Shown: in pieces, positions 153-28,526 of the stretch
How the letters are laid out: the number at the start of each line of letters is the position of its first letter
How positions within the stretch are numbered: position 1 is the stretch's first letter
Source of the DNA: Rhodocyclaceae bacterium
GTDB lineage: Bacteria > Pseudomonadota > Gammaproteobacteria > Burkholderiales > Rhodocyclaceae
DNA length: 38,774 nucleotides
NCBI GenBank assembly: GCA_024709955.1
Contig: JANJVS010000194.1
Location: 1-38,774, forward strand
Direction of reading: 5' to 3'
The notes under the pieces: model-generated
What the model was told of the DNA's origin: nothing
The model's input: only the letters and a program-made list of their open reading frames with translations
Databases searched by the model: none
Program-made: the position numbers and the translations under genes

Positions 153-275
153 AAAAGTCGGCGCTGGCGCGACGGTGAGTGCACCGAATGCCAACCCCGG
201 CTTTCGTGGAGGCTGACCGGCGCCAGCCGGTCAAGCGCAGCGGCCGAAACAAAAGTCGGCGCTGGCGCGACGGTG
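153..275 (+). repeat. Composite intergenic repeat, copy A (25-bp direct repeats flanking a 73-bp core)
   Basis: Two identical 25-bp modules, 153-177 and 251-275, each starting AAAAGTCGGCGC and ending GACGGTG, flank a 73-bp core (178-250). The core contains a perfect 7-bp stem, GACCGGC/GCCGGTC, with a 4-nt loop at 215-232. An inverted copy lies at 14454-14600; its core has the same length with about 63 of 73 positions identical, and the stem is kept while the loop changes. No reading frame here looks like a gene. The element fills the gap between alaS and the LysR gene. Confidence 0.85.
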
Positions 276-282
276 GGCGCGC

Positions 283-1218
283 TCAGTCCGGCAGCTCGGC
301 GCCGGCGCGGGTCTGGCGCGCCTCGTCCAGCAGCCAGGCGACGAAGCGCTCCACCTCGGGCCGCGCGGCGCCGGGGGCGCGCATCAGGTAGTAGGCGCGG
401 GCGGCATGGCGCTGGGCCGTCGCCGCCAGCGGCACCAGCCGCCCGGCCGCCAGCGACTGCGCCACCAGCGGGCCGCGCCCCAGCGCGATGCCGCGGCCGT
501 CCTCGGCGGCGCGTATGAGTTGGTCGTACTGGTTGAACTGCAGCACCGCCTGGGGCCGCGCATCCGCCAGCCCGTTCGCCGCCAGCCAGGGCTCCCAGGA
601 GAACCAGGGAAAGCGCCGGCCGTCGTCGTAGGACAGCAGCGTCGCCGTGGCGAAGTCCGCGGCGCGCAGCGGCAGGCGCAGCCCGACCGCCACGGCCGGC
701 GCGGCGACGGGGAAGACGTTCTCCCCGAACAGATGCACGGCCCCCGCCGCCACGCTGCCGGGATCGTCGTAGCGCAGGGCGAGGTCGATGCCCTCGCGCT
801 CCAGGTCGACGAAGCGGTTGTCGGCGGAGATCAGCACGTCGAGGTCCGGCTCCAGCGCCTGGAAGGCGGCCAGGCGCGGCACCAGCCAGAGCGAGGCGAT
901 GCTGACGGCGGCGGTGATGGTGACGCGCGGGCGCCGGCGCGGCGCGCGCAGGCCGGCGCAGACCCCGGCGAGACGCTCGAAGCTTTCGCTCACCGCGCGG
1001 AACAGCAGCTCGCCCTCGGCGGTGAGCGCGAGCCGGCGCGTCTCGCGGCGGAACAGCTTCACGCCGAGCTGCTCCTCCAGCGTCTGGATCTGGCGGCTGA
1101 TGGCCGACTGGGTGAGGAAAAGCTCGGCGGCGGCGCGGGTGAAGCTCAGGTGGCGCGCGGCGGCCTCGAAGCCTTTCAAGGGGTCGAGGGAGGGCAGCTT
1201 GCGCAGGTCTTCATGCAT
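283..1218 (-). CDS. LysR-family transcriptional regulator (GcvA-like)
   Basis: This 311-residue protein has the usual LysR length. A winged helix-turn-helix spans about residues 10-70 (AARHLSFTRAAAELFLTQSA, then RQIQTLEEQLGVKLFRR), followed by a periplasmic-binding-fold effector domain (about 95-300) of the GcvA/AmpR type. It is divergent from the DUF2917-tautomerase-hydrolase genes, the normal geometry for a LysR protein controlling its neighbours. A TTCATG/CATGAA inverted repeat (1210-1234) overlaps its start codon and could serve in autoregulation; that is inference. The effector cannot be named from sequence. Confidence 0.93.
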   Translation of the reverse strand: MHEDLRKLPSLDPLKGFEAAARHLSFTRAAAELFLTQSAISRQIQTLEEQLGVKLFRRETRRLALTAEGELLFRAVSESFERLAGVCAGLRAPRRRPRVTITAAVSIASLWLVPRLAAFQALEPDLDVLISADNRFVDLEREGIDLALRYDDPGSVAAGAVHLFGENVFPVAAPAVAVGLRLPLRAADFATATLLSYDDGRRFPWFSWEPWLAANGLADARPQAVLQFNQYDQLIRAAEDGRGIALGRGPLVAQSLAAGRLVPLAATAQRHAARAYYLMRAPGAARPEVERFVAWLLDEARQTRAGAELPD

Positions 1219-1234
1219 GATTTTTTCTCATGAA
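1210..1234. promoter_or_regulatory. Inverted repeat at the LysR start, candidate operator
   Basis: TTCATG (1210-1215) and CATGAA (1229-1234) form a 6-bp inverted repeat with a 13-nt AT-rich spacer, spanning the LysR start codon (1216-1218) at the edge of the divergent intergenic region. Size and position suit a LysR-type autoregulatory site, but the arms are short. Confidence 0.35.
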
Positions 1235-1338
1235 TCAAATGCCGATTTCTCGTTTGTGCGCCACCTTTACAGGACATACAGTGCAGGCACGAAAGACGGA
1301 AATTCCATCAATGCAACCAACGCATGGAGGATAGGCAA

Positions 1339-1683
1339 ATGGCAAGCATCAGGCAAGAGACGCGCATCGAACTCGGCCGGCGCGAACTGCTGGCCCTGTG
1401 CGCCCCCGGGGCGCACAGCCTCGCCTGCGCGGCGGGCGAGCTCTGGATCACCTTCGACGGCAGCCGCGAGGACGCCATCCTGCGCGCCGGCGACCGGCTC
1501 GAAGTCGCCGACGGGCGCGGCATCGTGGTTTCCGCCCTGCGGCCGGCGACGCTGCTGCTCGCGCCCCATCGGCCGACGGGCGCCTGCCTGCTCGGCGCCG
1601 GGCGCGGCCTCTGGGCGGCCGCGCGGCGGCTGCGCTGGCGCTTCCCGGCTCTCTCTTCCCTCCCGTCCACTCAACTGCGCTAG
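1339..1683 (+). CDS. DUF2917-family protein
   Basis: The 114-residue product starts at the ATG at 1339, which has GGAGG (1326-1330) eight bases upstream; an earlier in-frame ATG at 1324 overlaps that ribosome binding site and is less likely. The sequence is a small beta-rich domain (GELWITFDGSREDAILRAGD, then RLEVADGRGIVVSA) typical of DUF2917, a cupin-like family of unknown function common beside GcvA-like LysR genes in betaproteobacteria. The tail is rich in Arg and Leu. It lies divergent from the LysR gene and upstream of a tautomerase-like gene on the same strand. Confidence 0.8.
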   Translation: MASIRQETRIELGRRELLALCAPGAHSLACAAGELWITFDGSREDAILRAGDRLEVADGRGIVVSALRPATLLLAPHRPTGACLLGAGRGLWAAARRLRWRFPALSSLPSTQLR

Positions 1684-1692
1684 GAAAAAATC

Positions 1693-2094
1693 ATGCCCTA
1701 CCTCGACATCCGCATCGCCGCGCCCTGTCTGCCGGAAACCGTGCGGAAGTTCGCCACGCGCCTCACCGACCTCACCGCCGACCTGCTCGCCAAGCGGCGC
1801 GAGCTGACCGCCGTGTCGCTGCAATGCGTCGCCCCCGGCCACTGGTACGTGGGCGGCGCCTCCCTCTCGGAGGTCGGCGGCACGAGCTTCTTCATCGAGG
1901 CGAACGTCACGGCCGGCAGCAACAATGCCGAGCAGAAGGAGGCCTTCGTCGCCGCCGCCTTCGCCGCCGCCGAGGACATCCTCGGCCAGCTCGACGCGGC
2001 GAGCTACGTCATCGTGCGCGAGGTGCCGGCGGACGCCTGGGGCTACCAGGGCAGGACGCAGGCCCGGCGCCAGGCTGAGAGGAGCGCGGCATGA
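1693..2094 (+). CDS. Tautomerase-superfamily protein (4-oxalocrotonate tautomerase-like)
   Basis: The protein begins MPYLDIRIAA, so Met removal leaves an N-terminal Pro, the general base of the tautomerase superfamily. At 133 residues it is about twice the length of a classic 4-oxalocrotonate tautomerase (about 62), closer to the fused-domain members such as malonate semialdehyde decarboxylase or cis-CaaD. The C-terminal VREVPADAWGYQG resembles the second conserved segment of such proteins. AGGA lies seven bases upstream of the start. The gene starts 9 bases after DUF2917 and its stop overlaps the following hydrolase start (ATGA at 2091). The substrate is unknown. Confidence 0.82.
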   Translation: MPYLDIRIAAPCLPETVRKFATRLTDLTADLLAKRRELTAVSLQCVAPGHWYVGGASLSEVGGTSFFIEANVTAGSNNAEQKEAFVAAAFAAAEDILGQLDAASYVIVREVPADAWGYQGRTQARRQAERSAA

Positions 2095-2633
2095 ACCCCG
2101 CCCTGCTGATCGTCGACATCCAGAACGACTATTTCGCCGACGGCGCCCTGCCCCTCGTCGGCAGCGCGGCGGCGGCGGCCCAGGCCGGCCGGCTGCTCGC
2201 GCATTTCCGCGCGCAAGGCTGGCCGGTCGTGCATGTGCGCCACGTGTCCTTGCGTCCCGACGCGGCCTACCTGCGGCCCGCCACGCCGGGCGCGGAAATC
2301 CATCCGGCGGTCGCGCCGCAGGCCGGCGAGCCGGTGATCCTCAAGCATTATCCGAACAGCTTCCGCGCCACGCCGCTGCTGGAGACGCTGCGCGCGCTGC
2401 CGGCCGAACGCCTGGTGGTCGCGGGCATGATGACGCACATGTGCATCGACACCAGCGTGCGCGCCGCGTCCGATCTCGGCTTCGCGTGCACGCTGGCGCA
2501 CGACGCCTGCGCGACGCGCGCGCTGCGCTTCGGCACGACGGAGGTGGCGGCGGAACAGGTGCAGGCGGCCTATCTCGCGGCCCTGCACGGCTTGTTCGCG
2601 ACGGTGCGCGCGACGGACGAGATCGTCGCCTGA
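2091..2633 (+). CDS. Isochorismatase-family cysteine hydrolase
   Basis: This 180-residue protein has the full family length and fold. The likely catalytic triad is Asp9 (LLIVDIQNDYF), Lys85 (VILKHYPNSF) and Cys118 (GMMTHMCIDTSVRAASDLGF), with the characteristic T-x-x-C-x-x-x-T segment. Family members hydrolyse amide or ether bonds in compounds such as nicotinamide, N-carbamoyl sarcosine or isochorismate; the exact substrate is not readable. The start overlaps the tautomerase stop by 4 bases, indicating translational coupling. Its stop codon directly abuts the stop of the convergent phosphodiesterase at 2634, with no intergenic base. Confidence 0.92.
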   Translation: MNPALLIVDIQNDYFADGALPLVGSAAAAAQAGRLLAHFRAQGWPVVHVRHVSLRPDAAYLRPATPGAEIHPAVAPQAGEPVILKHYPNSFRATPLLETLRALPAERLVVAGMMTHMCIDTSVRAASDLGFACTLAHDACATRALRFGTTEVAAEQVQAAYLAALHGLFATVRATDEIVA

Positions 2634-3323
2634 CTACATCTCCTCCGCCCGCCAGAGGTCGGGGCGGTCGGTGAACACGGCGGCGCAGCCGAGGGCGAAC
2701 AGGCGCTCCGCCTCGGCGCGGGTATTCACCGTGTAGCAGGCCCAGGGCAGGCCGGCGGCGGCCAGCCGCGCGGCGGCGGCCGGCGCGTGGCCGGCGTCGA
2801 GATGCACGGCGGCGGCGTCGAGGCGGGCGCAGACGACCTGCCAGTCCGCCGGCAAAGCCTCAAAAAGCATGGCGAAGGCGGCGTCGGGCAGCGCGCACCG
2901 TGCCGCCAGCGCCGACTTTTCGGAGAAGGAGGAAACCACGCCCTTGCCGTCCCAGTGGGCGGCGAGCCAGGCGCCGACGACGGCGCCGGTCTCTTCCTCG
3001 TGGCCGGCGGCGGGCTTGAGCTCGACGTTGGTCCACAGGCCGAGGCGGCGGCAGTCCGCCATGGCCTCGGCGAGCGTCGGCACCGCCGGATCGCCGGCGC
3101 GGATCGCGGCGAAGGCCAGTTCGGCGACGCGCCCCCGGCAGCGCGTGCTGCGGTCGAGGGTCTCGTCGTGCATGAGGATGGGCACGCGGTCGGCCGTCAG
3201 CATGACGTCGAACTCGACGGCGCGGCAGCCGAGCCGCGCGGCGGCTTCCAGGCCGGCGCGGGAGTTCTCCATCGCCAGCGCGCCGCCGCAGCGGTGGGCG
3301 ACGATGCGCGGGTAGCGGATCAA
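2634..3323 (-). CDS. Glycerophosphodiester phosphodiesterase (UgpQ/GlpQ type)
   Basis: The 229-residue cytoplasmic-type enzyme would cleave glycerophosphodiesters to glycerol-3-phosphate and an alcohol. Visible catalytic and metal residues are His10-Arg11 (IVAHRCGG), Glu37 and Asp39 (AVEFDV), His52 (ILMHDETLDRST) and Glu101 (NVELKP). No signal peptide is present. No ATG is available at the N-terminus; a TTG at 3323 overlaps the TGA of the upstream binding-protein gene (TTGA), fitting the coupling used elsewhere in this window. Residues 135-143 (EKSALAARC) are encoded by a copy of the dispersed 25-bp module (2896-2920). The sequence starts so close to the His-Arg motif that no longer start is needed. 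Confidence 0.88.
   Translation of the reverse strand: MIRYPRIVAHRCGGALAMENSRAGLEAAARLGCRAVEFDVMLTADRVPILMHDETLDRSTRCRGRVAELAFAAIRAGDPAVPTLAEAMADCRRLGLWTNVELKPAAGHEEETGAVVGAWLAAHWDGKGVVSSFSEKSALAARCALPDAAFAMLFEALPADWQVVCARLDAAAVHLDAGHAPAAAARLAAAGLPWACYTVNTRAEAERLFALGCAAVFTDRPDLWRAEEM
2896..2920 (-). repeat. 25-bp module inside the phosphodiesterase reading frame
   Basis: On the plus strand this reads CACCGT to GCCGACTTTT and matches the intergenic 25-bp module (153-177, reverse complement) at 23 of 25 positions. It is read in frame as Lys-Ser-Ala-Leu-Ala-Ala-Arg-Cys in the enzyme, between the Glu101 metal-site strand and the C-terminal part of the barrel. Confidence 0.7.
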
Positions 3324-4696: not shown

Positions 4697-4808
4697 GGGC
4701 CGGACCCTGGATGGCGAGGAGCGCCAGTGTATATCGAGAGCCCCTGCCCGCGTTGCGGGCCGGAGGCTTCTCCTTTACCCTACGGCTTCCGCCAGCCCGC
4801 CGCCCGCC

Positions 4809-5381
4809 ATGAACCGTCCGCAAGCCGTCGCCCTCGCCATCGCCGCCGCCAACCTGGCGCTGATGCTGCTGTTCCCGCCCCACGACTACCTGAGCTTGCA
4901 GCGCGGCAACGTGCCGACCTTCGACGGCTTCTACTTCGTCTTCGCCGGCCAGGCGAACCGTGTCATCAACGCCGACTTTCTCGCCCTCGAAGTCATCGTC
5001 GTGCTGATCAACGCCTGCATCGCCTGGCTGCTGCTGCGCGAGCGCCCGCTCGGCAAGGCCATGCCGGGCGGCAACCGCTACCAGCGCGGCGTGCTCTGGC
5101 TGGTGGCCCTCAACCTGATGCTGGTGGTGCTGTTCCCGCCCTTCCAGAACTACACGGCGATCACCCGCGCCGCCCTGCCGACCTTCGAGGGCTTCTATTT
5201 CATCTTCGCCGACAACTCGCAGCGCCAGCTCGTCGCCGCCATCCTCTACCTGGAAGTGGCGCTGGTGCTGGCGAACGGCGCGATCCTCTGGCTGCTGTTC
5301 AAGGGCCAGGGCGCCGCCAGGCTCTCGGCCGCCGAGCTGCGCGCCCTGGCCGGGCAGGTGCGCGACGCCCAACGGAAATAA
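4809..5381 (+). CDS. Small membrane protein with an internal duplication
   Basis: This 190-residue protein has about four hydrophobic segments and no recognised enzymatic motif. Its two halves are related. Residues around 17-80 contain LMLLFPPHDY, PTFDGFYFVFAG and LEVIVVLINACIAWLLL; residues around 105-165 contain LMLVVLFPPFQNY, PTFEGFYFIFAD and LEVALVLANGAILWLLF. The repeated FPP and PTF(D/E)GFYF(V/I)FA blocks sit in the loop after the first helix of each half. It is divergent from the UgpB-like gene with about 110 bases between. The function is unknown. Confidence 0.8.
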   Translation: MNRPQAVALAIAAANLALMLLFPPHDYLSLQRGNVPTFDGFYFVFAGQANRVINADFLALEVIVVLINACIAWLLLRERPLGKAMPGGNRYQRGVLWLVALNLMLVVLFPPFQNYTAITRAALPTFEGFYFIFADNSQRQLVAAILYLEVALVLANGAILWLLFKGQGAARLSAAELRALAGQVRDAQRK

Positions 5382-5450
5382 AGATTCCGGCGCCATTGCC
5401 GTAAACTCCGCAGAGCGCTGCCTGTCCGCCCGTCCCGCCACCACCGCCCC

Positions 5451-5894: not shown

Positions 5895-6050
5895 CGGCCA
5901 TCCGCGGGTTTCCGCTCCGGGCCCGCTCCCGCAGGAACCGGCACCGCCGGATTCCTGCCGGGGAATTGATTCCAGTCAATGACCATCTATTACCAAAGAC
6001 TGGATAGTGGATGGCATTCCGGCCCGCGTGCCGGCCATGCCCACGCCGCG

Positions 6051-9413: not shown

Positions 9414-10853
<1,440 letters not shown>

Positions 10854-12305: not shown

Positions 12306-13520
12306 ATGAGATTCGGGCTGGAACGCCTCGTCGCGGAACCCGCGCTGCGCCGCCCCCTCGCCGGCCGGCGCGTCGCCCTGCTCGCCCATCCGGCCTCGAC
12401 CACGCGCGAGCTGACCCACGCGCTCGACGCACTCGGGAATCGGGCCGCCCTGCCCGAAATCAAGCTCACCGCCGCCTTCGGTCCGCAGCACGGCCTGCGC
12501 GGCGACAAGCAGGACAACATGATGGAGTCGCCCGACTTCCTCGATCCGGCCCTCGGCATCCCGGTGTTCAGCCTCTACGGCGAGGTGCGCCGGCCGACCG
12601 CCGCGATGATGGATACCTTCGACGTGCTGCTCGTGGACCTGCAGGACCTCGGCTGCCGCATCTACACCTTCATCACCACGCTGCGCTACGTGCTCGAAGC
12701 CGCCGCCGCCCACGGCAAGGCGGTCTGGGTGCTCGACCGCCCCAACCCCGCCGGCCGTCCCGTCGAGGGCACGCTGCTGCGCGCCGGCTGGGAAAGCTTC
12801 GTCGGCGCCGGGCCGCTGCCGATGCGCCACGGCCTGACCATGGGCGAACTGGCGCGCTGGTTCGTCGCCACGCTCGGGCTCGACGTCGAATGCGAGGTCA
12901 TCGCGATGGAAGGCTGGCAGCCCGACGCCGCGCCCGGCCACGGCTGGCCGCTGCTGGAACGCAGCTGGATCAACCCGAGCCCGAACGCGCCCAACCTGTC
13001 GATGGCGCGCTGCTACGCCGGCACGGTGATGCTCGAAGGCACGACGCTCTCCGAGGGGCGCGGCACGACGCGTCCCCTCGAACTCTTCGGCGCGCCGGAC
13101 ATCGACGCCGCCGCGCTGCTTCAGGAAATGTCGGCGCTGGCGCCACGGTGGCTGGCGGGCTGCAAGCTGCGCCCCTGCTGGTTCGAGCCCACCTTCCACA
13201 AGCACGCCGGCCAGCTCTGCCAGGGCATCCAGATCCACGTCGAGGACCCGGCGCATTACGACCACGCCGCCTTCCACCCCTGGCGCCTGATGGCGCTCGC
13301 CTTCAAGGCGATCCGGCGCCTGCAACCGGACTACCCACTGTGGCGCGACTTCCCCTACGAATACGAACGCGACCGCCTCGCCATCGACCTGATCAACGGC
13401 GGCCCGCTATTGCGCGAGTGGGTGGACGATCCGGCGGCGACGCCCGCCGACCTCGACGCGCTGGCCGGCCCGGACGAGACGCTCTGGCGCGCGGCGAGCG
13501 CGGCCTTCCGCCTCTACTGA
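12306..13520 (+). CDS. Exo-beta-N-acetylmuramidase NamZ family (DUF1343, GH171)
   Basis: The 404-residue product shows the DUF1343 blocks in order: VALLAHPAS, AAFGPQHGLRG, GIPVFSLYG, FDVLLVDLQDLGCRIYTFI, VLDRPNPAG, MRHGLTMGELA, NPSPNAPNLS and EGTTLSEGRGTTRPLELFG. The Bacillus NamZ enzyme of this family removes terminal MurNAc from peptidoglycan fragments. Here no signal peptide is visible, so a cytoplasmic role in muropeptide recycling is more likely than a secreted lytic one. It is the last gene of the helicase-FAH-DOMON cluster. Residues encoded at 13126-13150 come from a copy of the 25-bp dispersed module. Confidence 0.9.
   Translation: MRFGLERLVAEPALRRPLAGRRVALLAHPASTTRELTHALDALGNRAALPEIKLTAAFGPQHGLRGDKQDNMMESPDFLDPALGIPVFSLYGEVRRPTAAMMDTFDVLLVDLQDLGCRIYTFITTLRYVLEAAAAHGKAVWVLDRPNPAGRPVEGTLLRAGWESFVGAGPLPMRHGLTMGELARWFVATLGLDVECEVIAMEGWQPDAAPGHGWPLLERSWINPSPNAPNLSMARCYAGTVMLEGTTLSEGRGTTRPLELFGAPDIDAAALLQEMSALAPRWLAGCKLRPCWFEPTFHKHAGQLCQGIQIHVEDPAHYDHAAFHPWRLMALAFKAIRRLQPDYPLWRDFPYEYERDRLAIDLINGGPLLREWVDDPAATPADLDALAGPDETLWRAASAAFRLY
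13126..13150 (+). repeat. 25-bp module inside the NamZ-type reading frame
   Basis: These 25 bases match the intergenic module at 153-177 in 23 positions and are read in the same phase as the copy in the phosphodiesterase (Met-Ser-Ala-Leu-Ala-Pro-Arg-Trp here). Confidence 0.65.
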
Positions 13521-13529
13521 TCCCTCCTG

Positions 13530-13575
13530 CCGTTCCCGACTCCCACGGGGATTCCCTGCGATCACGCCGACTTTT
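13530..13575 (-). repeat. Longer variant of the dispersed module, intergenic
   Basis: Starts CCGTTCCCGACTCC, contains ACGGGGATTCCCTGCG and ends CACGCCGACTTTT. The block closely matches 14552-14600, the distal flank of composite copy B. It lies just downstream of the NamZ gene stop. Confidence 0.75.
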
Positions 13576-14047: not shown

Positions 14048-14621
14048 GTCCGTCTCCCATGATGAATTGGTAAACATGAGGTTCAGGCGCGGTCACTACC
14101 CGGAAACCGGTACGCCTTGGGCAAGGGTAGGCCAGAAATACGGGAAATCAAGAATTTTTTATATTTTTCAAATACTTAATTAAAGTAATACGCTCCAGCG
14201 CCATGGTCTTGCTATGGATTTAGGCGATGATGGCCGTCCCTGGCCGGCAGGCCGCGATTCAGGCCATGCGGGCCTTGGCGGCGGAATGGACGGCCCGGCG
14301 AAGCTCGGGAAAAGAGCGCCACATCGGCCTCCCCGGCGCGCTACCAGCCCAAAGTGGTAGCTAGCGAGACTGTCATGTTCGCCAGGCCATGGCTCCGGCG
14401 ATTCACCGAATTCCGCAAGTCGCCGCGCGGCGACCGGGCATCGCTGCCGCAGCCACCGTCCCGCCGGCGCCGACTTTTATTCCGGCCGCTGCGCTTGACC
14501 GGCTACCGCCGGTCGGCCTCCACGAAAGCCGTGGTTGGCGTTCGGCACGCTCACCGTCCCAAGACTCCAACGGGGATTCCCTGCGTTCACGCCGTCTTTT
14601 GTTGCCGGAACGATCGATGTC
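14048..14621. other. Intergenic region with AT-rich tract, hairpin and composite repeat copy B
   Basis: No gene is visible. From the cytochrome side it holds an AT-rich tract (about 14150-14200, including the near-palindrome ACTTAATTAAAGT) that could carry the cytochrome promoter, a small hairpin CTACCA/TGGTAG (14341-14360), and the inverted composite repeat at 14454-14600 next to the stop codon of the c-di-GMP protein at 14622. Confidence 0.6.
14454..14600 (-). repeat. Composite intergenic repeat, copy B (inverted relative to copy A)
   Basis: The 25-bp module at 14454-14478 (23 of 25 identical to copy A) is followed by the 73-bp core (14479-14551) with the stem GACCGGC/GCCGGTC at 14497-14514. 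A longer terminal variant (14552-14600) contains ACGGGGATTCCCTGCG and ends GCCGTCTTTT. The orientation is opposite to copy A at 153-275. Confidence 0.85.
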
Positions 14622-19813: not shown

Positions 19814-19828
19814 GCCGGCTCCTGACCG

Positions 19829-20137: not shown

Positions 20138-20140
20138 GGT

Positions 20141-21094
20141 TCAGCTCCTCCGCGGGCGGCGCGGGTCGAAGGCCAGCTCGCGCGCCATCGTTGCATAAAG
20201 CTCGCGCGCCCGCGGCGTGTCGGCCGGCGGCAGCACGATGCGGATGTCGAGCAGCAGGTCGCCCGGCGGATTGCCCGGCAGCCCCTTGCCGCGCACGCGC
20301 AATTGGCGCCCGTCCTGGGTACCTTCCGGAATGCGCAGCTTGAGCGCGCCGTCGGGCAGGTCCACGGCGACCACCGCGCCGAGCGCCGCCTCCCAGGGCG
20401 CCACCGGCAGGGTCATGCGCAGGTCGGCGCCGTCCACCGCCAGGCGCGCATGGGGGCGGAACTCGACCTCCAGCAGCAGGTCGCCGGCCGGCGCGCCGCC
20501 CGTGCCCGGCGTACCCTGCCCGGCGAGACGGATCACCTGGCCAGGCCGCACGCCTTGGGGAATCCGGACATTGAGGGTGCGCGTATCCACCGTCACGCGA
20601 CCGCCCGCGTCGAGACGCGGCACGCGCAGGTTGATCTGCCGCGTCGCGCCGTGCAGGCTGTCCTCGATGTCGAGCAGAACCTTGGCGTGATGGTCCTCGC
20701 CGCGCGCGTGGTAGTCCTGCCGCGCGCGGAAGGCGCCGCCCATGCCGCCCCCCATGCGGCCGAACAGCTCGGCGAAGAAGTCGCTGAACTCGGCCGCCTC
20801 GTGGGGCGAGAAGCCGCGGCCGGAGAACTCGAAGCCGGCATCCCAGCCCGGCGGCGGACGAAACTCCTGTCCCGGCCGGTAGCCCTGGCCGAGCTGGTCG
20901 TAGGCCGCGCGCTTCTCCGGATCGGCAAGCACCGCGTGGGCCTCGTTGATCTCCTTCATGCGCTGTTCGGCGTCCGGCTCCTTCGAGACGTCCGGATGGT
21001 ATTTGCGCGCCAGCTTGCGGAAGGCGGTCCTGATCTCCTCCGCCGTCGCATCGCGCCGGACGCCAAGGGTCTGGTAATAGTCCTTGTATTGCAT
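20141..21094 (-). CDS. cbpA: DnaJ-like co-chaperone / curved DNA-binding protein CbpA
   Basis: The 317-residue protein has an N-terminal J domain (about 4-70) with the HPD tripeptide (KYHPDVSKEPDAEQRMKEIN), a Gly/Phe-rich linker and two beta C-terminal substrate-binding domains, without the zinc-finger domain of DnaJ. This is the CbpA architecture. It stimulates DnaK and can bind curved DNA. It heads the minus-strand operon cbpA-cbpM-M48 protease and diverges from the hsp20 genes across a sigma-32-type promoter region. Confidence 0.94.
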   Translation of the reverse strand: MQYKDYYQTLGVRRDATAEEIRTAFRKLARKYHPDVSKEPDAEQRMKEINEAHAVLADPEKRAAYDQLGQGYRPGQEFRPPPGWDAGFEFSGRGFSPHEAAEFSDFFAELFGRMGGGMGGAFRARQDYHARGEDHHAKVLLDIEDSLHGATRQINLRVPRLDAGGRVTVDTRTLNVRIPQGVRPGQVIRLAGQGTPGTGGAPAGDLLLEVEFRPHARLAVDGADLRMTLPVAPWEAALGAVVAVDLPDGALKLRIPEGTQDGRQLRVRGKGLPGNPPGDLLLDIRIVLPPADTPRARELYATMARELAFDPRRPRRS

Positions 21095-21150
21095 CTGCGC
21101 TTCCCGGTTAGAGAAAAAGGCTGCGATATAAGTAAGGATACTCGGGCCCG

Positions 21151-21187
21151 CTTCAAGCTCTTGAACTTCCGCGCCGCAATCCCATAT
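21151..21187. promoter_or_regulatory. Divergent heat-shock (sigma-32) promoter region
   Basis: On the plus strand CTTGAA (21160-21165) and CCCATAT (21181-21187) are separated by 15 bases, a near-consensus sigma-32 promoter about 50 bases before the first hsp20 gene. The reverse-facing CTTGAAG (21157-21151) forms a palindrome with it (TTCAAG-CT-CTTGAA) and points toward cbpA, although its -10 is not convincing. Confidence 0.75.
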
Positions 21188-21240
21188 CGGCGACGTGGGC
21201 GCCGGAGCACAGCGCCATTCGTGATCCGAAAGGAGGAATC

Positions 21241-21675
21241 ATGTTCCATCGCAGCCTGTTTCCCCGCGACCTGTTCGCGGAACTGGACCGCCTGCAGCGT
21301 GAGATGCAGCAGGCCAACGAGTATTCGCCAAGCATCCGCGGCAGCGGGCGCGGCGGCTTTCCAGCGCTCAACGTCGGCGGCACGCCGCGGTCCATCGAGA
21401 TCTACGCCTTCGCGCCCGGCATCGATCCGGCCAGCATCGACGTGCAGCTCGAAAAAGGCGTGCTGACCATCGCCGGCGAGCGCCCGCCCGCGCCCCGCGA
21501 CGAGAAGACCGCCGTGCATATCGACGAGCGCTTCGCCGGCCGCTTCCGCCGCGTCGTCACCCTGCCCGACGACATCGACCCGAACGCCGTGGCCGCGAAG
21601 TACCGCGACGGCGTGCTGCACATCAGCATCCAGCGCCGCGCCGCCGCCCAGCCGCGTCGCATCGCCATCCAGTAA
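21241..21675 (+). CDS. Small heat-shock protein Hsp20 (alpha-crystallin), copy 1
   Basis: The 144-residue holdase has an alpha-crystallin domain (about 40-135): IEIYAFAPGIDPASIDVQLE, GVLTIAGER, FRRVVTLPDDIDPNAVAAKY and DGVLHISI, with a C-terminal basic tail. It binds unfolding proteins under heat. AGGAGG stands five bases before the ATG. A sigma-32-type promoter lies upstream, and the second hsp20 gene follows after 13 bases, so the two form an operon. Confidence 0.94.
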   Translation: MFHRSLFPRDLFAELDRLQREMQQANEYSPSIRGSGRGGFPALNVGGTPRSIEIYAFAPGIDPASIDVQLEKGVLTIAGERPPAPRDEKTAVHIDERFAGRFRRVVTLPDDIDPNAVAAKYRDGVLHISIQRRAAAQPRRIAIQ

Positions 21676-21688
21676 GGAGGACCGGACC

Positions 21689-22075
21689 ATGAACGAAACC
21701 GCCAACAAGACCGCTGATCAAGCCACCGCGGCGCCCCGGCCAGAAGCCGCCCTGCTGCCGCCGGTGGACGTCATCGAGGACGCCAACGGCATCACCCTCC
21801 ACGCCGACCTGCCCGGCGTGCCGAAGGACAAGCTGCACCTCCAGGTGGAGGCCGACACCCTGACCATCGAGGGGGAGGTGAGCCTGGCCATGCCCGAGGA
21901 CATGGAATCGACCCACGCCGAGGTGAGCCTGCCACGCTACCGCCGCGTCTTCAGCCTGTCGAAGGAGCTCGACACCGAGAAGGTGGCCGCCGAGTTCGAC
22001 CAGGGCGTGCTCAAGCTGCGCATCCCGAAGGTGGCGCACGCGCAGCCGAGGAAGATCGAAATCCGCGTCGAGTAA
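21689..22075 (+). CDS. Small heat-shock protein Hsp20 (alpha-crystallin), copy 2
   Basis: This 128-residue paralogue has a complete alpha-crystallin domain (DANGITLHADLPGVPKDKLH, LTIEGEVSL, YRRVFSLSKELDTEKVAAEF, GVLKLRIPK). The N-terminal arm is short and Ala/Thr-rich. Paired Hsp20 proteins often form mixed oligomers. AGGAGG precedes the start. A strong inverted-repeat terminator follows three bases after the stop. Confidence 0.94.
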   Translation: MNETANKTADQATAAPRPEAALLPPVDVIEDANGITLHADLPGVPKDKLHLQVEADTLTIEGEVSLAMPEDMESTHAEVSLPRYRRVFSLSKELDTEKVAAEFDQGVLKLRIPKVAHAQPRKIEIRVE

Positions 22076-22077
22076 GG

Positions 22078-22127
22078 AAACTCGGCGCCGATGGGACGGT
22101 GCACCGTCCCGCGAGCGCCGAGTTTTT
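22078..22127. terminator. Bidirectional terminator made of two inverted copies of the dispersed module
   Basis: The outer stem AAACTCGGCGC (22078-22088) pairs with GCGCCGAGTTT (22115-22125); inside it lies a perfect palindrome GGGACGGTGCACCGTCCC (22093-22110). A T5 run follows on the plus strand and an A-tract precedes, so it can end hsp20 transcription and that of the convergent gene at 22130. Each half resembles the 25-bp module (CACCGT to GCCGAGTTTT). Confidence 0.85.
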
Positions 22128-22129
22128 GC

Positions 22130-23938
22130 TTACTGGATCGTATAGACCTGTTTGTAGCGCCCGCCCTGCAGCATGTCGTTGAGTGCGCTGTCACCCATGC
22201 CACGGCCGTAGCCGAACCAGACCGTCGTGCCGACCAGGCCGGAGAGATCGAGGCCGTCGGTCAGCGTGATCGGCAGGGGCACGCTCGTGACCGCCGAGAC
22301 ATAAGGCAGGTATTGATCCGTCCAGCCGCCGGGCGTGAAGAAGAAGAAGTTTCCGCCCACCTGGGCCGCGACGTAGAACGACACGCCGCCAGCCAGATCG
22401 CTCGCCGGCGCCGACATGCCGCCCAGGGTCAGGGTACGCGCCGTCAGCGCGCCGCTCGCCGTAACCGTGCCGTCGAGGATGGTCGTGGCTGGCGTCGCCT
22501 CCGGATCGAGACTGGCGAGATACATGCCCACGACCCAAGACTCGGTGTAACGGCCGGTGGCGAGCGAGGTGGCGTCGAAGCTCGCCGAATCCTCGAACGA
22601 ACCCGCGACCATCAGCTTGCCGCTGGCGCTCTGCGCCATGGCGTAGCCGAAATCGTCGCCGCTGCCACCGCCGCCGCTCTTGACCCAGAGATAGCCGCCG
22701 CTGGCCGCGTCGAACTCGGCGACGAACACATCCCCTTTATTGAGCGAGGTCAGGGTGAAGCCGCCGAAGCTGGTCTCCGCCGTGTAGTAGCCGCTCGCCA
22801 CCGGATTGCCGTTGCCGCGCACGAGCAGGCCGTAGACTCCCGCATGCCCGGCCAGCGTGGCGCTCGCCGGATTGCCGGCCTGCTGCGCCCAGAGGAAGTT
22901 GCCCGAACCGTCGAGCTTGGCGACGAAGGCCACATAGGAACTCTTCGCCGCCGTCAGGAAAGTGCCGCCGAAGGTGGCGGAGTAGGCGAACTGCCCGCCG
23001 ACATAGACGTTGCCAGCGCTGTCGACGGCGAGTGCGCGCGCCGAGTCGAAGCTGCCGCCCTGGATGCTGCGCGCCCACTGCCACTGGCCGTCGCGGTCGA
23101 GCTTGGCGACGAAGGGATCGCCGGAGGAGGTCACCGTCAGCGTCGAACCGCCGAAGCTCGCCGTGCCCTGCGCCATGGCGGCGACGATGTCGCCGGCGAT
23201 GAAGACATTGCCGCTGCCGTCGCTGGCGACCGCATAAGCATTGTCGCCATCCTCGCTGCCGCCGCCGCGCGCCCAGGCGAGCTGGTCGAAGGCCTTGTTG
23301 ATCTTGAAGACGAAGGCGTCACTGCCGGCGGAGTCGCCGCCGGTCGCCGCCAGCGACGCGCCGAGCACGCTGGCGGTCTTGGTGAATGCGCCGGCGACCA
23401 GCAGGCTGCCCTCCGCGTCAAGCGCCAACGCCTTGCCGTACATCGAGCCGCTGCCGCCATGGGTCAGCACGCGCGCGAACTGCCCCGTGCCCGCGTCGGC
23501 GGCGGCGAGGAAGAACGCGGCCTGGTAGGTCGCGCTCGCCGCCAGTGGATGGCCGTTGAAGTTGGCGCCATAGACGCAGTGGCCGGTGAGGAAGACCTCG
23601 TCGCCGTCGGTCGCCACCCCGCCCGCGCCGCAGGACATGCCGCCCGCCGCCACGGCCCAGAGCACCGTGCCGGCGCTGTCGTACTTGGCGAGGAACACGT
23701 CGCTATAGCCCGGCGTGCTGGTCAGCGTATTGGCGCCGAAACTCACGCTGCCGCTGTAGGTGCCGGTCACGTAGGTGTTGCCGGCGGCATCCGTCGCCAC
23801 CGCCGTCGCCGTGGCGGTCGAAGATGCGGCGGAAACATTCGCCTGCCGCGCCCAGGTCCAGGACTGTGTCGCGGCAAGGCCCATGCCCGCCCACAAACCG
23901 CACAGGGCGAACAAAATCGATGCGACTGCACGTTTCAT
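22130..23938 (-). CDS. SBBP-repeat (beta-propeller-like) exported protein
   Basis: The 602-residue protein has a signal peptide (MKRAVASILFALCGLWAGMG to LAAT) followed by about seven repeats of the SBBP type, each with a GNxYVxG or GxxFxAG strand, an FG block, and FVAKLD..G...WA. Examples are AGNTYVTGTYSGSVSFGANT and AGNVYVGGQFAYSATFGGTF. The last 120 residues form a separate beta-rich domain (TILDGTVTASGALTARTLTL to the terminal QVYTIQ) seen at the ends of secreted proteins in betaproteobacteria. The ATG at 23938 is set by AGGAGG eight bases upstream; a GTG at 23944 is too close to that site. Function is unknown; surface or periplasmic display is likely. Confidence 0.82.
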   Translation of the reverse strand: MKRAVASILFALCGLWAGMGLAATQSWTWARQANVSAASSTATATAVATDAAGNTYVTGTYSGSVSFGANTLTSTPGYSDVFLAKYDSAGTVLWAVAAGGMSCGAGGVATDGDEVFLTGHCVYGANFNGHPLAASATYQAAFFLAAADAGTGQFARVLTHGGSGSMYGKALALDAEGSLLVAGAFTKTASVLGASLAATGGDSAGSDAFVFKINKAFDQLAWARGGGSEDGDNAYAVASDGSGNVFIAGDIVAAMAQGTASFGGSTLTVTSSGDPFVAKLDRDGQWQWARSIQGGSFDSARALAVDSAGNVYVGGQFAYSATFGGTFLTAAKSSYVAFVAKLDGSGNFLWAQQAGNPASATLAGHAGVYGLLVRGNGNPVASGYYTAETSFGGFTLTSLNKGDVFVAEFDAASGGYLWVKSGGGGSGDDFGYAMAQSASGKLMVAGSFEDSASFDATSLATGRYTESWVVGMYLASLDPEATPATTILDGTVTASGALTARTLTLGGMSAPASDLAGGVSFYVAAQVGGNFFFFTPGGWTDQYLPYVSAVTSVPLPITLTDGLDLSGLVGTTVWFGYGRGMGDSALNDMLQGGRYKQVYTIQ

Positions 23939-23991
23939 ATCCACATCCTCCTTTCCATCATCATAGCCCGGCCACGGCGCGGGAGAAGGCG

Positions 23992-24131
23992 CACCGTGCC
24001 GCGATCCGCTACGGCGAGGATTCGCAGCGGCGAGGAGAGCGTACTTTGCTCGACCGCCCTGCTGCGCAGGGGCTTCATCAGAGCGCCTCTTGCTCGACCG
24101 CCTTGTAGCGCAGTTGTTCCATCAGCGCCGG
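23992..24131 (+). repeat. Approximately 80-bp dispersed element, one full and one partial tandem copy
   Basis: It starts CACCGTGCCGCGATCCGCTA, continues with a CGGCGAGGAGAGCGTACTTT block and then GCTCGACCGCC, TGCGCAG and GCTTCATCAGAGCGCC. A second partial copy (about 24088-24131) repeats CTTGCTCGACCGCCTTGTAG and ends CATCAGCGCCGG. Related copies lie at 30506-30573 and 37651-37735. It occupies the gap between the SBBP protein start and the ZIP transporter stop. Confidence 0.8.
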
Positions 24132-24141
24132 CTTTCCGGGT

Positions 24142-25086
24142 TCAGCCCAGCGTGGTGTCGAGCACCATCATGAGCGCGAAGCCGACCATGAGGCCGAGGG
24201 TGGCCGGGGTCTGATGGCCGTTGCGGTGGGTCTCGGGAATCACCTCGTGGGAGACGACGAAGATCATCGCGCCGGCGGCGAGGCCGAGGCCGACCGGGTA
24301 GGCGACCGCGAGGCCGCTCGACAGGCCGATACCGAGCAGCGCGCCAACGGGTTCGAGCAGGCCGCTGGCGGCGGCGACCAACACGGAGAGCAGCGCGGAA
24401 AAACCGGCGCCGCGCAGCGCCAGCGCCACCGCCAAACCCTCGGGGATGTCCTGCAGCGCGATGGCCGTGGTGAGCGGCAGGCCGACGCTCATGTCGCCCT
24501 GGGAAAAGCTCACGCCGATGGCCATGCCCTCGGGCAAGTTGTGCAGGGCGACGGCGAAGACGAACAGCCAGATGCGCCCGCAGCGCTCGTGGCCGGGGCC
24601 GCAGGGGCCGGTCTTGTCATGCTCGTGGGGCGTGAAGGCGTCGAGACCGAGCATCAGCAGCACGCCGAGGGCCATGCCGGCGACGACGACGGCGGCGCCG
24701 AGGCCCTTGTGACCGAGGATCTCCGTGCCGGCCGCCAGCCCCGGCAGCAGCAGCGAGAAGGCGCTGGCCGCGAGCATCATGCCGGCGGCGAGGCCGAGCA
24801 GGCTGTCCTCGACGCGCTGCGGCAGGCCGCGCAGCACCAGTGCCGGCAGGGCGCCGAGGGCGGTGGCGGCGAAGCCCGCCGCGCCGCCGAGCAGGGCGTA
24901 GCGCAGGCCGGCGGCGGCCTCGCCGGCGGCGATCTGGAGCAGGCTCTGGACCAGCAGGGCGAGCACCGCGAGCAGCCCGACGGCGAGACCCAGCGCGGCA
25001 AAGCCGTGGCTGCGCGCATGGGCGCGGAAGGCGTCGAGCCAATGGCCCGCCGGCGGCGGGACGGTTTGCGCGAGTTCGTTTTGCAT
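24142..25086 (-). CDS. ZIP-family divalent metal transporter
   Basis: The 314-residue membrane protein has about eight helices and the ZIP metal-site motifs HNLPEGMAIG (helix 4) and QDIPEGLAVALAL (helix 5), with a His/Cys-containing cytoplasmic loop (TPHEHDKTGPCGPGHERCG) between helices 3 and 4 that could sense or buffer metal. It imports zinc, iron or manganese; which one is not readable. The N-terminal segment before the first helix is longer than in minimal members. No regulator adjoins it. Confidence 0.92.
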   Translation of the reverse strand: MQNELAQTVPPPAGHWLDAFRAHARSHGFAALGLAVGLLAVLALLVQSLLQIAAGEAAAGLRYALLGGAAGFAATALGALPALVLRGLPQRVEDSLLGLAAGMMLAASAFSLLLPGLAAGTEILGHKGLGAAVVVAGMALGVLLMLGLDAFTPHEHDKTGPCGPGHERCGRIWLFVFAVALHNLPEGMAIGVSFSQGDMSVGLPLTTAIALQDIPEGLAVALALRGAGFSALLSVLVAAASGLLEPVGALLGIGLSSGLAVAYPVGLGLAAGAMIFVVSHEVIPETHRNGHQTPATLGLMVGFALMMVLDTTLG

Positions 25087-25253
25087 GGCCGCAAGCCTAG
25101 CGGCTTCGGCGGCGAAAGAAAACGAAAAAAACCCTATCGCGCCGATACCCCGATTCGATTGGACGCCGCCGGCGTTCTCGGCTCAAATGCCGCAAGCCGG
25201 CGCGGAACTCATCGCCCGCCGGACGATCCATGGATGGACACAGGGAGGCGATC

Positions 25254-25391
25254 ATGAACGGACAAACGACACACCGGTGGCTCGACAGCTTCATCCATGC
25301 CGTCGCGTTCCTCGGCCACGGCCTGGCCGGGACCGGCGCGGAAGACGCGCGCGCGGCGCGGCTTGAGAAATGCCGCGCGCGCCGCATCTGA
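25254..25391 (+). CDS. Small ORF of 45 residues upstream of the ChaN-type gene
   Basis: An ATG at 25254 with GGGAGG five bases upstream opens a 45-residue frame (MNGQTTHRWLDSFIHAVAFL, then GHGLAGTGAEDARAARLEKC). It stops 5 bases before the lipoprotein start at 25397. The good ribosome binding site and tight spacing suggest a real leader or coupled small protein. No family recognised. Confidence 0.5.
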   Translation: MNGQTTHRWLDSFIHAVAFLGHGLAGTGAEDARAARLEKCRARRI

Positions 25392-25396
25392 ACCGC

Positions 25397-26545
25397 ATGC
25401 GCCCGCTCCTGCTCGCCGCCGCCCTCCTGCCGCTGCTGACCGCCTGCGCCGGCGACCCGGCCCAGGCCGGCTGCGGCCAGCCCGGCGAATGGCGCGCCGC
25501 CACGCCGGCGGCCGCGCCGCTGCCGGCCGCCGCGCTGATCGACGACATGGCGCGACGCCAGGCGGTGCTGCTCGGCGAGGCCCACGACAGCGCCGAGGAC
25601 CACCGCTGGCAGTTGCATACCCTGGCGCAGCTGCACGCGCGCCAGCCGCGCCTGGCCATCGGCTTCGAGATGTTCCCGCGCCGCCTGCAGGGCGTGCTCG
25701 ACCAGTGGGTCGCCGGCGCGCTCACGGAGCGCGAGTTCCTCGAACGCGCCGAATGGGAGGCGGTCTGGGGCTTCGCCGCGCGCGACTACCTGCCGCTGTT
25801 CCACTTCGCGCGCATGCACCGGCTGCCGATGCTGGCCCTCAACGTCGAGCGCGAGCTGACCGACGCGGTCGGTAGGCAGGGCTGGGACGCCGTGCCGGAA
25901 AGCCGCCGCGAAGGCGTCTCCCGTCCCGCCGCGCCGGCGCCCGAATACCGCCGGGAACTGCGCGCCGTCTTCGACCACCACCCCGAAAAGGACAAGGACC
26001 CTCTGGCCTTCGCGCGCTTCGTCGAGGCCCAGACCCTCTGGGACCGGGCGATGGCGGAAGGCATCGCCGCCCATCTGCGGGGCCGGCCCGACGCGCTGGT
26101 GGTCGCCATCCTCGGCGCCGGCCATGTGCGCCACGGCCACGGCGTCGCCCACCAGCTCAAGGCCCTCGGCGTCGAGCGCGTCGGCGCGCTGCTGACCTGG
26201 CCGCGCGCGGAAAGCTGCGCGGCCATTCCGCCCGGACTCGCCGACGCCCTGCTGGTCGTCCAGCCGCCGCCGGAAAAGCCGTTGCGCATCGGCGTCTCCA
26301 TCGTCTCCGGCAAGGCAGCGGAGCCTGGCCTGCGCGTCGCCGAGGTGGCGCCAGGCGGCATCGCCGAGCAGGCCGGCATCAAGGCCGGCGACCTGATCGT
26401 CGCCGTCGCCGGCCAGCCGGCGCGCAGGCTGCAGACCCTGCGCAACGCCGTGCAGAACCAGCCGCCCGGCACCTGGCTGCCGCTCAGGCTGAAGCGCGGC
26501 GACGCCGAAATCGAACTCGTCGCCCGCTTTCCCGCGGCGCCATGA
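25397..26545 (+). CDS. ChaN-family lipoprotein with C-terminal PDZ domain
   Basis: The 382-residue product has a lipobox (LLTAC; Cys at about 17) and a ChaN domain (about 40-290): VLLGEAHDSAEDHRWQLHTL, AIGFEMFPRR and the C-terminal VVAILGAGHVRHGHGVAHQL. ChaN-type proteins are iron-regulated, bind haem in some species and resemble TraB/TIKI-type hydrolases. A PDZ domain occupies about 300-380 (GLRVAEVAPGGIAEQAGIKA, GDLIVAVAGQPA). The start at 25397 places the signal peptide at the N-terminus; the earlier ATG at 25370 would add nine residues and overlap the small ORF. Its stop overlaps the next gene (ATGA). Confidence 0.88.
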   Translation: MRPLLLAAALLPLLTACAGDPAQAGCGQPGEWRAATPAAAPLPAAALIDDMARRQAVLLGEAHDSAEDHRWQLHTLAQLHARQPRLAIGFEMFPRRLQGVLDQWVAGALTEREFLERAEWEAVWGFAARDYLPLFHFARMHRLPMLALNVERELTDAVGRQGWDAVPESRREGVSRPAAPAPEYRRELRAVFDHHPEKDKDPLAFARFVEAQTLWDRAMAEGIAAHLRGRPDALVVAILGAGHVRHGHGVAHQLKALGVERVGALLTWPRAESCAAIPPGLADALLVVQPPPEKPLRIGVSIVSGKAAEPGLRVAEVAPGGIAEQAGIKAGDLIVAVAGQPARRLQTLRNAVQNQPPGTWLPLRLKRGDAEIELVARFPAAP

Positions 26546-28503
26546 AGTCGATCGCCCGCGCCCTGATCCTGTTCTGCCTCGCGCTGCCCGCCGCCGCCGC
26601 GCCGCGGCTCGAACTGCAGGCGCGCCTCGATCCGGCGACGCGCCAGCTCGCCGCCACCGCGACCCTGGAGGATGCGCGCGGACTCGCGGGCTTCGCGCTC
26701 GGCGACGAGGTCGAGATCCTGTCCCTGACGGCGGACGGCCGTCGCATCGCGTCCCGGTCGATCCTGCGCCAGGGGCGTGCCTGGCACCCGCTGCCGACCG
26801 GCACGCGGCGCGCCCGGCTCGAATACCGCGTCACGCTGAAGCCGCTGGCCCGGCTCGACCATCGCGCGGCGCTCGCCGACCGCGACGCGGTGGCCGATCC
26901 GGAGGGCAGCTTCCTGCCCGCGGGCGCCGGCTGGTATCCGGAGCCCGGCGGCTATTTTTCCTACCGGCTCGACCTCGAACTGCCCGCGGGACAGAAGGGC
27001 CTCGCGCCCGGCGAGCTGCTGAGCGAGAGGGACGACGCCAGCGGCTACCGCGCCGCTTACGAGTTCGCCCAGCCCAGCGAGGGCATCGACCTGATGGCCG
27101 GCCCCTACGCCGTCGCCGAACGCGCCCTCGTCCTGCCGGGCGGCCGCCAGGTCCGCCTGCGCACCTGGTTCCATGCCGAGCTGGCGCCACTGGCCGCCGG
27201 CTACCTGGAAGACTCCGCGCGCCACATCGAACGCTACGACAGGCTCATCGGCGACTATCCCTTCGGCATCTTCAGCGTCGTCTCCAGCCCGACGCCGACC
27301 GGCTTCGGCATGCCGGGCCTGACCTACCTCGGCCGCGAGGTGCTGCGCCTGCCGTTCATCCGCGCCACCTCCCTCGGCCACGAGATCCTGCACAACTGGT
27401 GGGGCAACGGCGTCTATCCGGACTGGACCGCCGGCAACTGGTCCGAGGGTCTCGCCACCTACCTCGCCGACTACGCCTACAAGAAGGACGAGGGCGAGGA
27501 GGCCGCGCGCGCGATGCGCCTGGCCTGGCTGCGCGACCTCGCCGCCGTGCCGGCAGGCGGCGACGGCGCGCTCAAGGACTTCACCTCGCGCCGCCACGGT
27601 ATTTCCTCCATCGTCGGCTACAACAAGGCGGCGATGGTGTTCCTCATGCTGGAGGACGAGATCGGCCGCGCCGCCTTCGTGCGCGGCCTGCGCCTGCTCT
27701 GGGAACGCAAGCGCTTCGACGGCGCGAGCTGGGCCGACCTCGAAGCCGCCTTCGCGGCCGCCGCCGGCCGGCCGCTTCGGGACTTCTTCCGCCAGTGGGT
27801 GGAGCGCCCCGGCGCGCCCGCCCTCACCCTCAAGTCCGCCGTCCTCGGGGGCGACCGGCTGGAGCTCGGCATCGAGCAGCGCGGCGGCTACGCGCTGGAA
27901 ATCCCGCTGCGCCTGGTCTTCGCCGACCGCGTGGAGACGCGCAAGCCGCGCGTCACGGGCCGCGAAACCCGGCTCGTCCTCGACCGGGCGGCTGGCGCGC
28001 AAAGCGTCGAACTCGACCCCGACTACCGGCTCTGGCGCCGCGTCGATCCCGCCCTGCTGCCGGCGATCCTGCGCGAGGTCTTCGTCGCGCCGCGCGCCGC
28101 GCTGCTGGCGCCGGGCGCGGACGCGGCGACGCGCGCCGCCGCCCTCGCCCTCGCCGGCCGGGTGCTCGACGCCAGGCTGACGGCGGCGGCCGACGGCGAC
28201 GCGGGCCTGCCGGGCGCGCCGGCCCTGGTGATCGGCCTCGACCCCGCCGTGGATGCCTGGCTGAAGCGCCACGGACTGCCGCCGCGCCCGGTCGCGAGCG
28301 CCGGCAGCGCCCGGGTCTGGGCCGGCCGCGACGCGCGCGGCATTCCCTACGCGGTGGTCGCCGCCCGCGACCACGCCGCCCTCGGCGCCCTCGCGCGCGC
28401 CCTGCCCCACTACGGCGGCCAGAGCTGGCTCGCCTTCGACGGCCCGCGCGTCACGGCCAAGGGCATCTGGCCGCCGCGCGCGGAAGCCATTGCCGTTCGT
28501 TGA
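26542..28503 (+). CDS. M1-type zinc metallopeptidase (exported)
   Basis: The 653-residue protein has a signal peptide (MKSIARALILFCLALPAAAA), an N-terminal beta domain and a gluzincin core: HEILH (His280, Glu281, His284) and Glu302 in WSEGLATYLADYAYK, eighteen residues after the second His as in M1 aminopeptidases. The C-terminal region (about 420-650) is a less conserved Ala-rich domain. The start overlaps the ChaN-PDZ stop by 4 bases, so the lipoprotein with PDZ and the peptidase are coupled and may act together in the periplasm. A diverged 25-bp module begins at its stop codon (28502-28526). Confidence 0.88.
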   Translation: MKSIARALILFCLALPAAAAPRLELQARLDPATRQLAATATLEDARGLAGFALGDEVEILSLTADGRRIASRSILRQGRAWHPLPTGTRRARLEYRVTLKPLARLDHRAALADRDAVADPEGSFLPAGAGWYPEPGGYFSYRLDLELPAGQKGLAPGELLSERDDASGYRAAYEFAQPSEGIDLMAGPYAVAERALVLPGGRQVRLRTWFHAELAPLAAGYLEDSARHIERYDRLIGDYPFGIFSVVSSPTPTGFGMPGLTYLGREVLRLPFIRATSLGHEILHNWWGNGVYPDWTAGNWSEGLATYLADYAYKKDEGEEAARAMRLAWLRDLAAVPAGGDGALKDFTSRRHGISSIVGYNKAAMVFLMLEDEIGRAAFVRGLRLLWERKRFDGASWADLEAAFAAAAGRPLRDFFRQWVERPGAPALTLKSAVLGGDRLELGIEQRGGYALEIPLRLVFADRVETRKPRVTGRETRLVLDRAAGAQSVELDPDYRLWRRVDPALLPAILREVFVAPRAALLAPGADAATRAAALALAGRVLDARLTAAADGDAGLPGAPALVIGLDPAVDAWLKRHGLPPRPVASAGSARVWAGRDARGIPYAVVAARDHAALGALARALPHYGGQSWLAFDGPRVTAKGIWPPRAEAIAVR

Positions 28504-28526
28504 AAGTCGGCGCTCGCGGCACGGTG
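28502..28526 (+). repeat. Diverged copy of the 25-bp module at a gene end
   Basis: The 25 bases overlap the peptidase stop codon and agree with the module at 153-177 in 21 positions; they begin GAAAGTCGGCGCT and end CACGGTG. Confidence 0.6.

Follow-up and report, generated by a model that had tools for sequence, protein, structure and literature searches.

Is the 25-bp module that recurs along this DNA a repeat that inserts itself, or a signal that arises where it stands? The 38,774-nt window analysed here is contig C52 of the source genome G000 (Rhodocyclaceae; 3.51 Mb, 237 contigs), and it carries the module on both strands, alone or as the ends of longer composites. The initial annotation of the window suggested a non-autonomous repeat with ends recognised by some enzyme. 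The module showed drive-like behaviour in the comparisons reported below, and we hold with reasonable confidence that it is a signal spread over the whole genome, recognised in trans and maintained by molecular drive; a DNA uptake sequence (DUS) is its most likely identity.

Abundance and boundaries of the module

In the source genome, 572 copies of CACCGTCCCGCCAGCGCCGACTTTT were found at up to 3 mismatches (300 forward, 272 reverse), against 0 matches for the reversed pattern under the same conditions. Within the window, GCCGACTTTT was counted 5 times, against 0.07 expected from dinucleotide shuffles. The recurrence beyond chance claimed by the initial annotation was thus borne out, and in the whole genome the copies were neither few nor at the level of shuffled sequence, the two outcomes it had named as speaking against a repeat family. 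Over-representation far beyond chance on both strands is a property by which DUS and uptake signal sequences (USS) are recognised. The closed genome of a relative, G017, contained 43 exact sites with the strands mixed (24/19), which excluded a polar segregation motif or Chi-like motif.

Matrices were built from 437 kb of G000, in stretches picked from contigs known to bear sites, and from 400 kb of G017, in stretches sampled at regular intervals. They held 35.8 and 34.3 bits, respectively, with a module sharply delimited at 25 bp and about 0 bits in the flanks. At a cut of 14 bits, 127 sites (G000) and 76 sites (G017) were obtained and 0 in reversed sequence, the density being 190–290 modules per Mb in these samples. 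In a logo of 224 sites from 120 loci, which read Y-GCCGT-nnn-GCCAGCGCCGACTTTT, conservation fell to background on either side of the module; because these loci had been retrieved by an exact pattern, its letters and the base right after the module are biased. Counted de novo, the most over-represented 12-mer was a module word in both G000 (210-fold) and G017 (135-fold), and no comparable motif was returned by this count in G005. In 634 kb of the latter genome no seed was found at up to 4 mismatches, and the highest scores given by the two matrices, 11.1 and 13.3 bits, lay below the 14-bit cut.

A second enriched word family, around AACCCAGATTGTCCATT, was observed in G017 (L240–L259), its 12-mers having 11–13 copies per 400 kb against 0.01–0.02 expected.

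Concerted dialects

Dialects were counted with a pattern that left the first base open to C or T and the second to G or A; up to 3 mismatches were allowed, and the reversed control gave no match in any genome. The first two bases were CA in 99 of 109 G000 sites and TG in 63 of 66 G017 sites, and CG in G007 (15/20), G009 (16/19), G042 (13/15), G071 (15/17) and G133 (11/11); mixed dialects were found in G011 (15 TG and 9 CG of 25) and G003 (14 CG and 12 TG of 32). A looser count at up to 5 mismatches had reversed controls of 9 in G000, 3 in G003, 2 in G017 and G011, 1 in G007, G042 and G179, and 0 elsewhere. At this cut the module of G102, which belongs to a different genus, ended in GACTCCC instead of GACTTTT (10 sites), and G079 (n = 4) and G179 (n = 7) had too few sites to read. 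Of 28 orthologous pairs, 22 had A as the second base in G000 against G in the relative, and no pair had A in both; the 6 pairs with G in both comprised five at the decayed window site 10780 and one at L218:248.

Lineage-specific, concerted dialects of this type are expected of DUS and USS and were clear for G000, G017, G007 and G009. The same base change at hundreds of places without homology calls for a recogniser that they share, and there is strong support for recognition of the module in trans. To this extent the recognition proposed by the initial annotation stands; spread of the 25-bp unit as an inserted repeat is not supported.

Evolution of sites in place

For comparison with the module-free G005, 21 genic sites of G000 and G017 (a few of them weak, 18–28 bits) were used for which the best match of the gene in the G005 sample was at least 40% identical and covered the site. 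No gap was present within 5 aa of the site in 13 of the 21 alignments, including those of PdxA, DusB, RecG and HemW. Two G000 regions (20 kb and 17 kb) were also compared with 12 genomes of the same genus, with alignments covering 30 loci per region search; 41 of 66 site-by-genome pairs were ungapped, and 40 of the 58 genic ones. The mostly gap-free genic alignments do not support insertion of the 25-bp unit, the reading of the initial annotation, and an insertion-type mobile repeat was rejected for the basic module on the same grounds. Presence or absence of the module by insertion at orthologous loci, by which miniature inverted-repeat transposable elements (MITEs) and repetitive extragenic palindromic (REP) elements are known, was not seen; the genic sites mostly originated by substitution, as is expected of DUS and USS.

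In 28 ungapped site-to-site pairs (7 positions), identity was 0.86 within the module and 0.65 in the 24 flanking bases. At L218:18709, the relatives ranged by degrees from lacking the site to having it, through substitutions. At window position 10780, 5 relatives held the module (0–2 mismatches) at the ungapped orthologous position, the G000 site being decayed. At 13126, none of 10 module-bearing relatives aligned gap-free had a site and no insertion was present; this site may have been gained recently or may only resemble a module. The G005 counterparts of 12 sites matched the consensus at a mean of 10.8 of 25 positions against 7.0 in the control, an excess that was not relied on because shared protein constraint accounts for part of it.

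A segment at L218:5766–5847 was 94–97% identical to three relatives amid far more diverged surroundings, and is perhaps an RNA gene.

Genomic position and spacing

Sites were assigned with a crude purpose-made gene caller (coding fraction 0.908 in G000 and 0.903 in G017), by which 52 of 127 sites (41%) were genic and 75 intergenic in G000, and 56 of 76 (74%) genic and 20 intergenic in G017. In a mixed sample of named contigs, 127 perfect sites were divided into 78 genic, 48 intergenic and 1 at an edge. For the 64 intergenic or edge sites of G000 with both neighbours called, the genes were convergent in 17 cases and divergent in 7, as raw counts with gap lengths not normalised. After merging of sites up to 300 bp apart, spacing was more even than random, with a variance-to-mean ratio of 0.47 (P = 0.0018) in G000 and 0.59 (P = 0.018) in the regularly sampled G017. 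Of twenty 20-kb stretches of G017, 19 held 2–7 sites each; the sole module-free one, L254, encodes phage-tail, tape-measure and transposase proteins (prophage and insertion sequence).

Distribution among genomes

A composite query matched 21 of 41 relatives, G000 counted: 18 of 19 genomes of its own genus, G005 being the exception, together with G019, G022 and G035. The 24-mer, with up to 3 mismatches allowed, matched at least once in 80 genomes out of 199 sampled from the family; its reversed control gave 0–1 matches. Twenty-one were module-rich, with 176–730 copies, and belonged to six genera (g1, g2, g25, g54, g62 and g80); every genome drawn from these genera (21/21) was rich. Three further genomes had 16–28 copies and the remaining ones 0–8. 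In a sample of 250 genomes of the order, searched with a stricter pattern, 20 matched, and more than 5 copies were found only in G000, G002, G017 and G079, members of g1 and g62 (195–357 copies). Among the matches listed for named contigs (at least 120 stretches, 80 with titles), most were labelled Rhodocyclaceae; other labels were Sulfuritalea, Thiobacillus, Gallionellaceae, Rubrivivax and more, and the outlier metagenome bins may be contaminated.

G005 (L180–L199, L220–L239), of the same genus, module-free in 634 kb and with ComEC present, offers a natural control, whether the module was lost there or had never been present. A few modules were clustered on single contigs in module-poor groups (G089:C104, G115:C1 at 1.46–1.49 Mb, G088:C50 and G245:C3), as if acquired from module-rich species. 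Cassette-like arrays at four named loci (L088, L093, L106 and L114), examined for composition, open reading frames and module positions, had 2–5 modules each, several of them in stretches without called genes, and are possibly transferred DNA.

Composite elements and sites in the window

The six 25-bp sites reported at 153, 251, 2896, 13126, 14454 and 28502, on both strands, were recovered (table 1). To these the matrix scan added the sites at 22077–22101 (−) and 22102–22126 (+), together with weaker ones at 36232, 4956 and 10780. Longer elements with the same ends do exist, the one annotated as 13530–13575 in fact starting at 13528, and the family with sharp ends and exchangeable interiors between module halves is real. 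An Rfam search of the window gave no family reaching the gathering threshold, in agreement with the view that no named family has these ends.

Table 1. Module sites and composites in the window, numbered from its first letter.
Position	Strand	Feature	Score or basis
153–177	−	module, bounds interior A together with the copy at 251–275	matrix score 40.0 bits
178–250	−	interior A of module-interior-module unit	
251–275	−	module, identical to 153–177, just past the 3′ end of a LysR-type gene (283–1218, minus)	
2896–2920	+	module within GDPD gene (2634–3323, minus)	42.0 bits
10780–10804	−	decayed site within DEAD-box helicase gene	18.1 bits
13126–13150	−	25-bp site within NamZ gene	34.3 bits
13528–13575	+	composite, interior C between module halves	
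14454–14478	+	module opening second A-type composite	41.1 bits
14552–14600	+	second module of the A-type composite at 14454, split by interior C	
22077–22101	−	module, left half of back-to-back inverted pair, between convergent genes	33.1 bits
22102–22126	+	module, right half of inverted pair	37.7 bits
23992–24131	+	composite, interior B between module halves, partly duplicated	
28502–28526	−	module overlapping stop codon of M1-peptidase-like gene	35.8 bits
about 30496–30572	+	decayed B-type composite	boundaries by eye
36232–36256	+	25-bp site within polyketide-synthase-like gene	30.3 bits
37651–37735	+	composite, interior B between module halves	

Interiors A–D of G000 sit between module halves or module copies, and the composites have the ends CACCGT and GCCGACTTTT in common. 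Genome-wide, BLAST gave at least 44 matches to the whole 128-nt A unit, of which 6 extended over a module end alone, and at least 51 to the B unit, with 40 candidates scored per search and some matches short. Both module halves were present at 13 of 21 interior copies in the 437-kb sample (A 5/10, B 4/5, C 2/4, D 2/2). At L218:248, an insert resembling interior C was found mid-module in the G011 ortholog, at a position where the module is plain (0–1 mismatches) in G000, G003, G008, G009 and G010, degenerate in G001 and G002, and missing from G005. The composites look like a second, later layer on the plain module. Interiors were rejected as hairpins, as one each of A, B and C folded no better than shuffles (z −0.4, −0.8 and −0.3). 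The inverted module pair of the window folds, over 22070–22132, into a long hairpin with a run of T at its end (−42.4 kcal/mol, z −7.6).

Weighing of the explanations

Presence inside and outside genes, evolution in place, conservation above that of the flanks, dialects, even spacing and absence from one prophage stretch together lead to the reading as an uptake signal, matching what is reported or known of DUS and USS; the hairpin of the inverted pair at 22077–22126, with its T run, was counted on the same side for its parallel in DUS. In such a system a surface DNA receptor, with a type IV minor pilin as the candidate, would favour module-bearing fragments, and homologous recombination would copy module-bearing alleles over module-less ones. 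Point substitutions would create and maintain sites inside genes as well as in intergenic DNA, and a shift of receptor specificity in a lineage would move all sites together to a new dialect. ComEC is present in G000, and a minor-pilin cluster at L380:2088–4499 (ComP_DUS, GspH, N_methyl and PilW domains) holds the best candidate receptors; both the identification of the recogniser with an uptake receptor and its protein identity are what we infer.

A number of observations weigh against an uptake signal. ComEC was matched in 194 and PF16732 in 185 of the 199 family genomes, whatever the module count, and ComEC and ComP_DUS, being near-universal in the family, therefore explain nothing alone. 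G005 has ComEC and no module, the module-rich G169 had no PF16732 match, and the module-bearing G018 had no ComEC match at 83% completeness. The occurrence of competence genes does not follow that of the module, and uptake is therefore a presumed step. A gap was present near the site in 8 of 21 alignments to G005, one of them large and overlapping the site, and 25 of 66 pairs within the genus were gapped, including 7 of 8 intergenic ones; the gapped pairs of both comparisons are without a site-by-site explanation. Five of the 12 G005 counterparts matched the consensus at 5–9 of 25 positions, about the control level, and gradual ancestry was not seen there. Inverted pairs within 200 bp were rare (2 in the G000 sample, 0 in that of G017), and the pair at 22077–22126 was absent from a simple terminator scan of window positions 21000–29000. 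The case for depletion in mobile DNA is a single prophage and insertion-sequence stretch, and the 25-bp module is more than twice as long as DUS or USS (9–12 nt).

The shared ends of composites A–D, the 15 direct module pairs lying 70–128 bp apart in the G000 sample, and the insert in the G011 module at L218:248 (plain in G000 and four relatives) would each suit a non-autonomous mobile repeat, in which the module or the composites transpose and their ends are read by a transposase or recombinase. Solo genic sites, however, mostly exchange codons without insertions or deletions, site positions are orthologous throughout the genus, the dialect shifts together genome-wide, and no module pair was found within 200 bp among the 76 sites of the G017 sample. 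We regard this explanation as quite improbable; it is largely refuted for the module and may hold for the interiors only. Selection, site by site, for binding of a protein that acts chromosome-wide (a nucleoid, segregation or repair factor) is also unlikely, if a little less so: it would account for positions fixed across species, for even spacing and for a specific 25-bp word, but a motif of about 35 bits, repeated hundreds of times and often within codons, would be hard to maintain copy by copy, as would the simultaneous change of dialect. The strands are moreover mixed along the closed genome G017, a genome of the same genus is module-free, and the prophage stretch has none. Chance matches in GC-rich coding sequence, through the codons favoured there (S-A-L-A, V-G-A-G), would agree with the strong preference of genic sites for some reading frames; the controls of 0, the intergenic position of 75 of 127 G000 sites and the empty 634 kb of G005 at a GC content of 0.61 leave chance next to no probability and refute it for the family, although single weak sites may still be due to it.

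We consider it more likely than not that the module is a third, independently evolved uptake signal, 25 bp long and with species dialects, in at least six genera of an environmental family of betaproteobacteria, beyond the two families with known signals. The family in question had no known self-recognition tag for DNA uptake. If true, a third and much longer signal in environmental bacteria would mean that self-tagging of DNA evolves repeatedly, drive and selection could be tested against each other in independent replicates (six rich genera and one module-free species of the same genus), and natural transformation could be read out in groups that have not been cultured. A receptor and hundreds of sites shifting specificity together would constitute a natural experiment.

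Comparison with known systems

Literature on 'DNA uptake sequence' with Rhodocyclaceae was not found, and broader searches gave none on such a motif in the family among the matches listed; of papers containing the module 10-mer, those listed were unrelated going by title and the start of the abstract.

REP elements are palindromic and mainly intergenic, and REP elements and bacterial interspersed mosaic elements (BIMEs) go with REP-associated tyrosine transposases (RAYTs). The module is like them in its hundreds of short copies and mosaic composites, and unlike REP in being non-palindromic and, by the crude gene calls, 41% (G000) or 74% (G017) genic. The neisserial repeat dRS3, which is separate from DUS, forms the inverted flanks of RS repeats. 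Composites A–D recall these mosaics, in which a short repeat bounds longer exchangeable segments; their flanks are module halves or direct copies, unlike the inverted flanks of dRS3.

USS of the Pasteurellaceae occur genome-wide, in genes and intergenic DNA, and are evenly spaced, as is the module, which differs from them in being a conserved 25-bp block. The USS words AAGTGCGGT and ACAAGCGGT, given in a passage of PMC12616744, are absent from the module on both strands, their core GCGG alone being found on the complement, where it spans the variable triplet.

Inverted pairs of DUS serve as terminators, and the module is like DUS in having an inverted pair with a hairpin and may be like it in depletion from mobile DNA (one stretch here). 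Its TG dialect starts with TGCCGTC, also present in the meningococcal DUS, although seven letters may agree by chance. Neither strand of the CG or the TG consensus contains the DUS-type word GCCGTCTGAA; its core trinucleotide CTG alone is found on the complement. According to a 2025 paper (PMC12616744), specific binding of this kind is known from two families only, the Neisseriaceae and the Pasteurellaceae. Depletion of DUS in mobile DNA has been reported (PMC7371117). In excerpts of PMC3630211, DUS are described with very high copy number (kingDUS, n = 5918 in 2.4 Mb), sites within coding sequences, and dialects with a fixed core that are linked to ComP. The module is unlike these DUS in its length (25 bp against about 10–12 nt), its lower density, the rarity of its inverted pairs and the presumed nature of uptake here; like the DUS of the Neisseriaceae, it combines high copy number, sites in coding sequence and species dialects.

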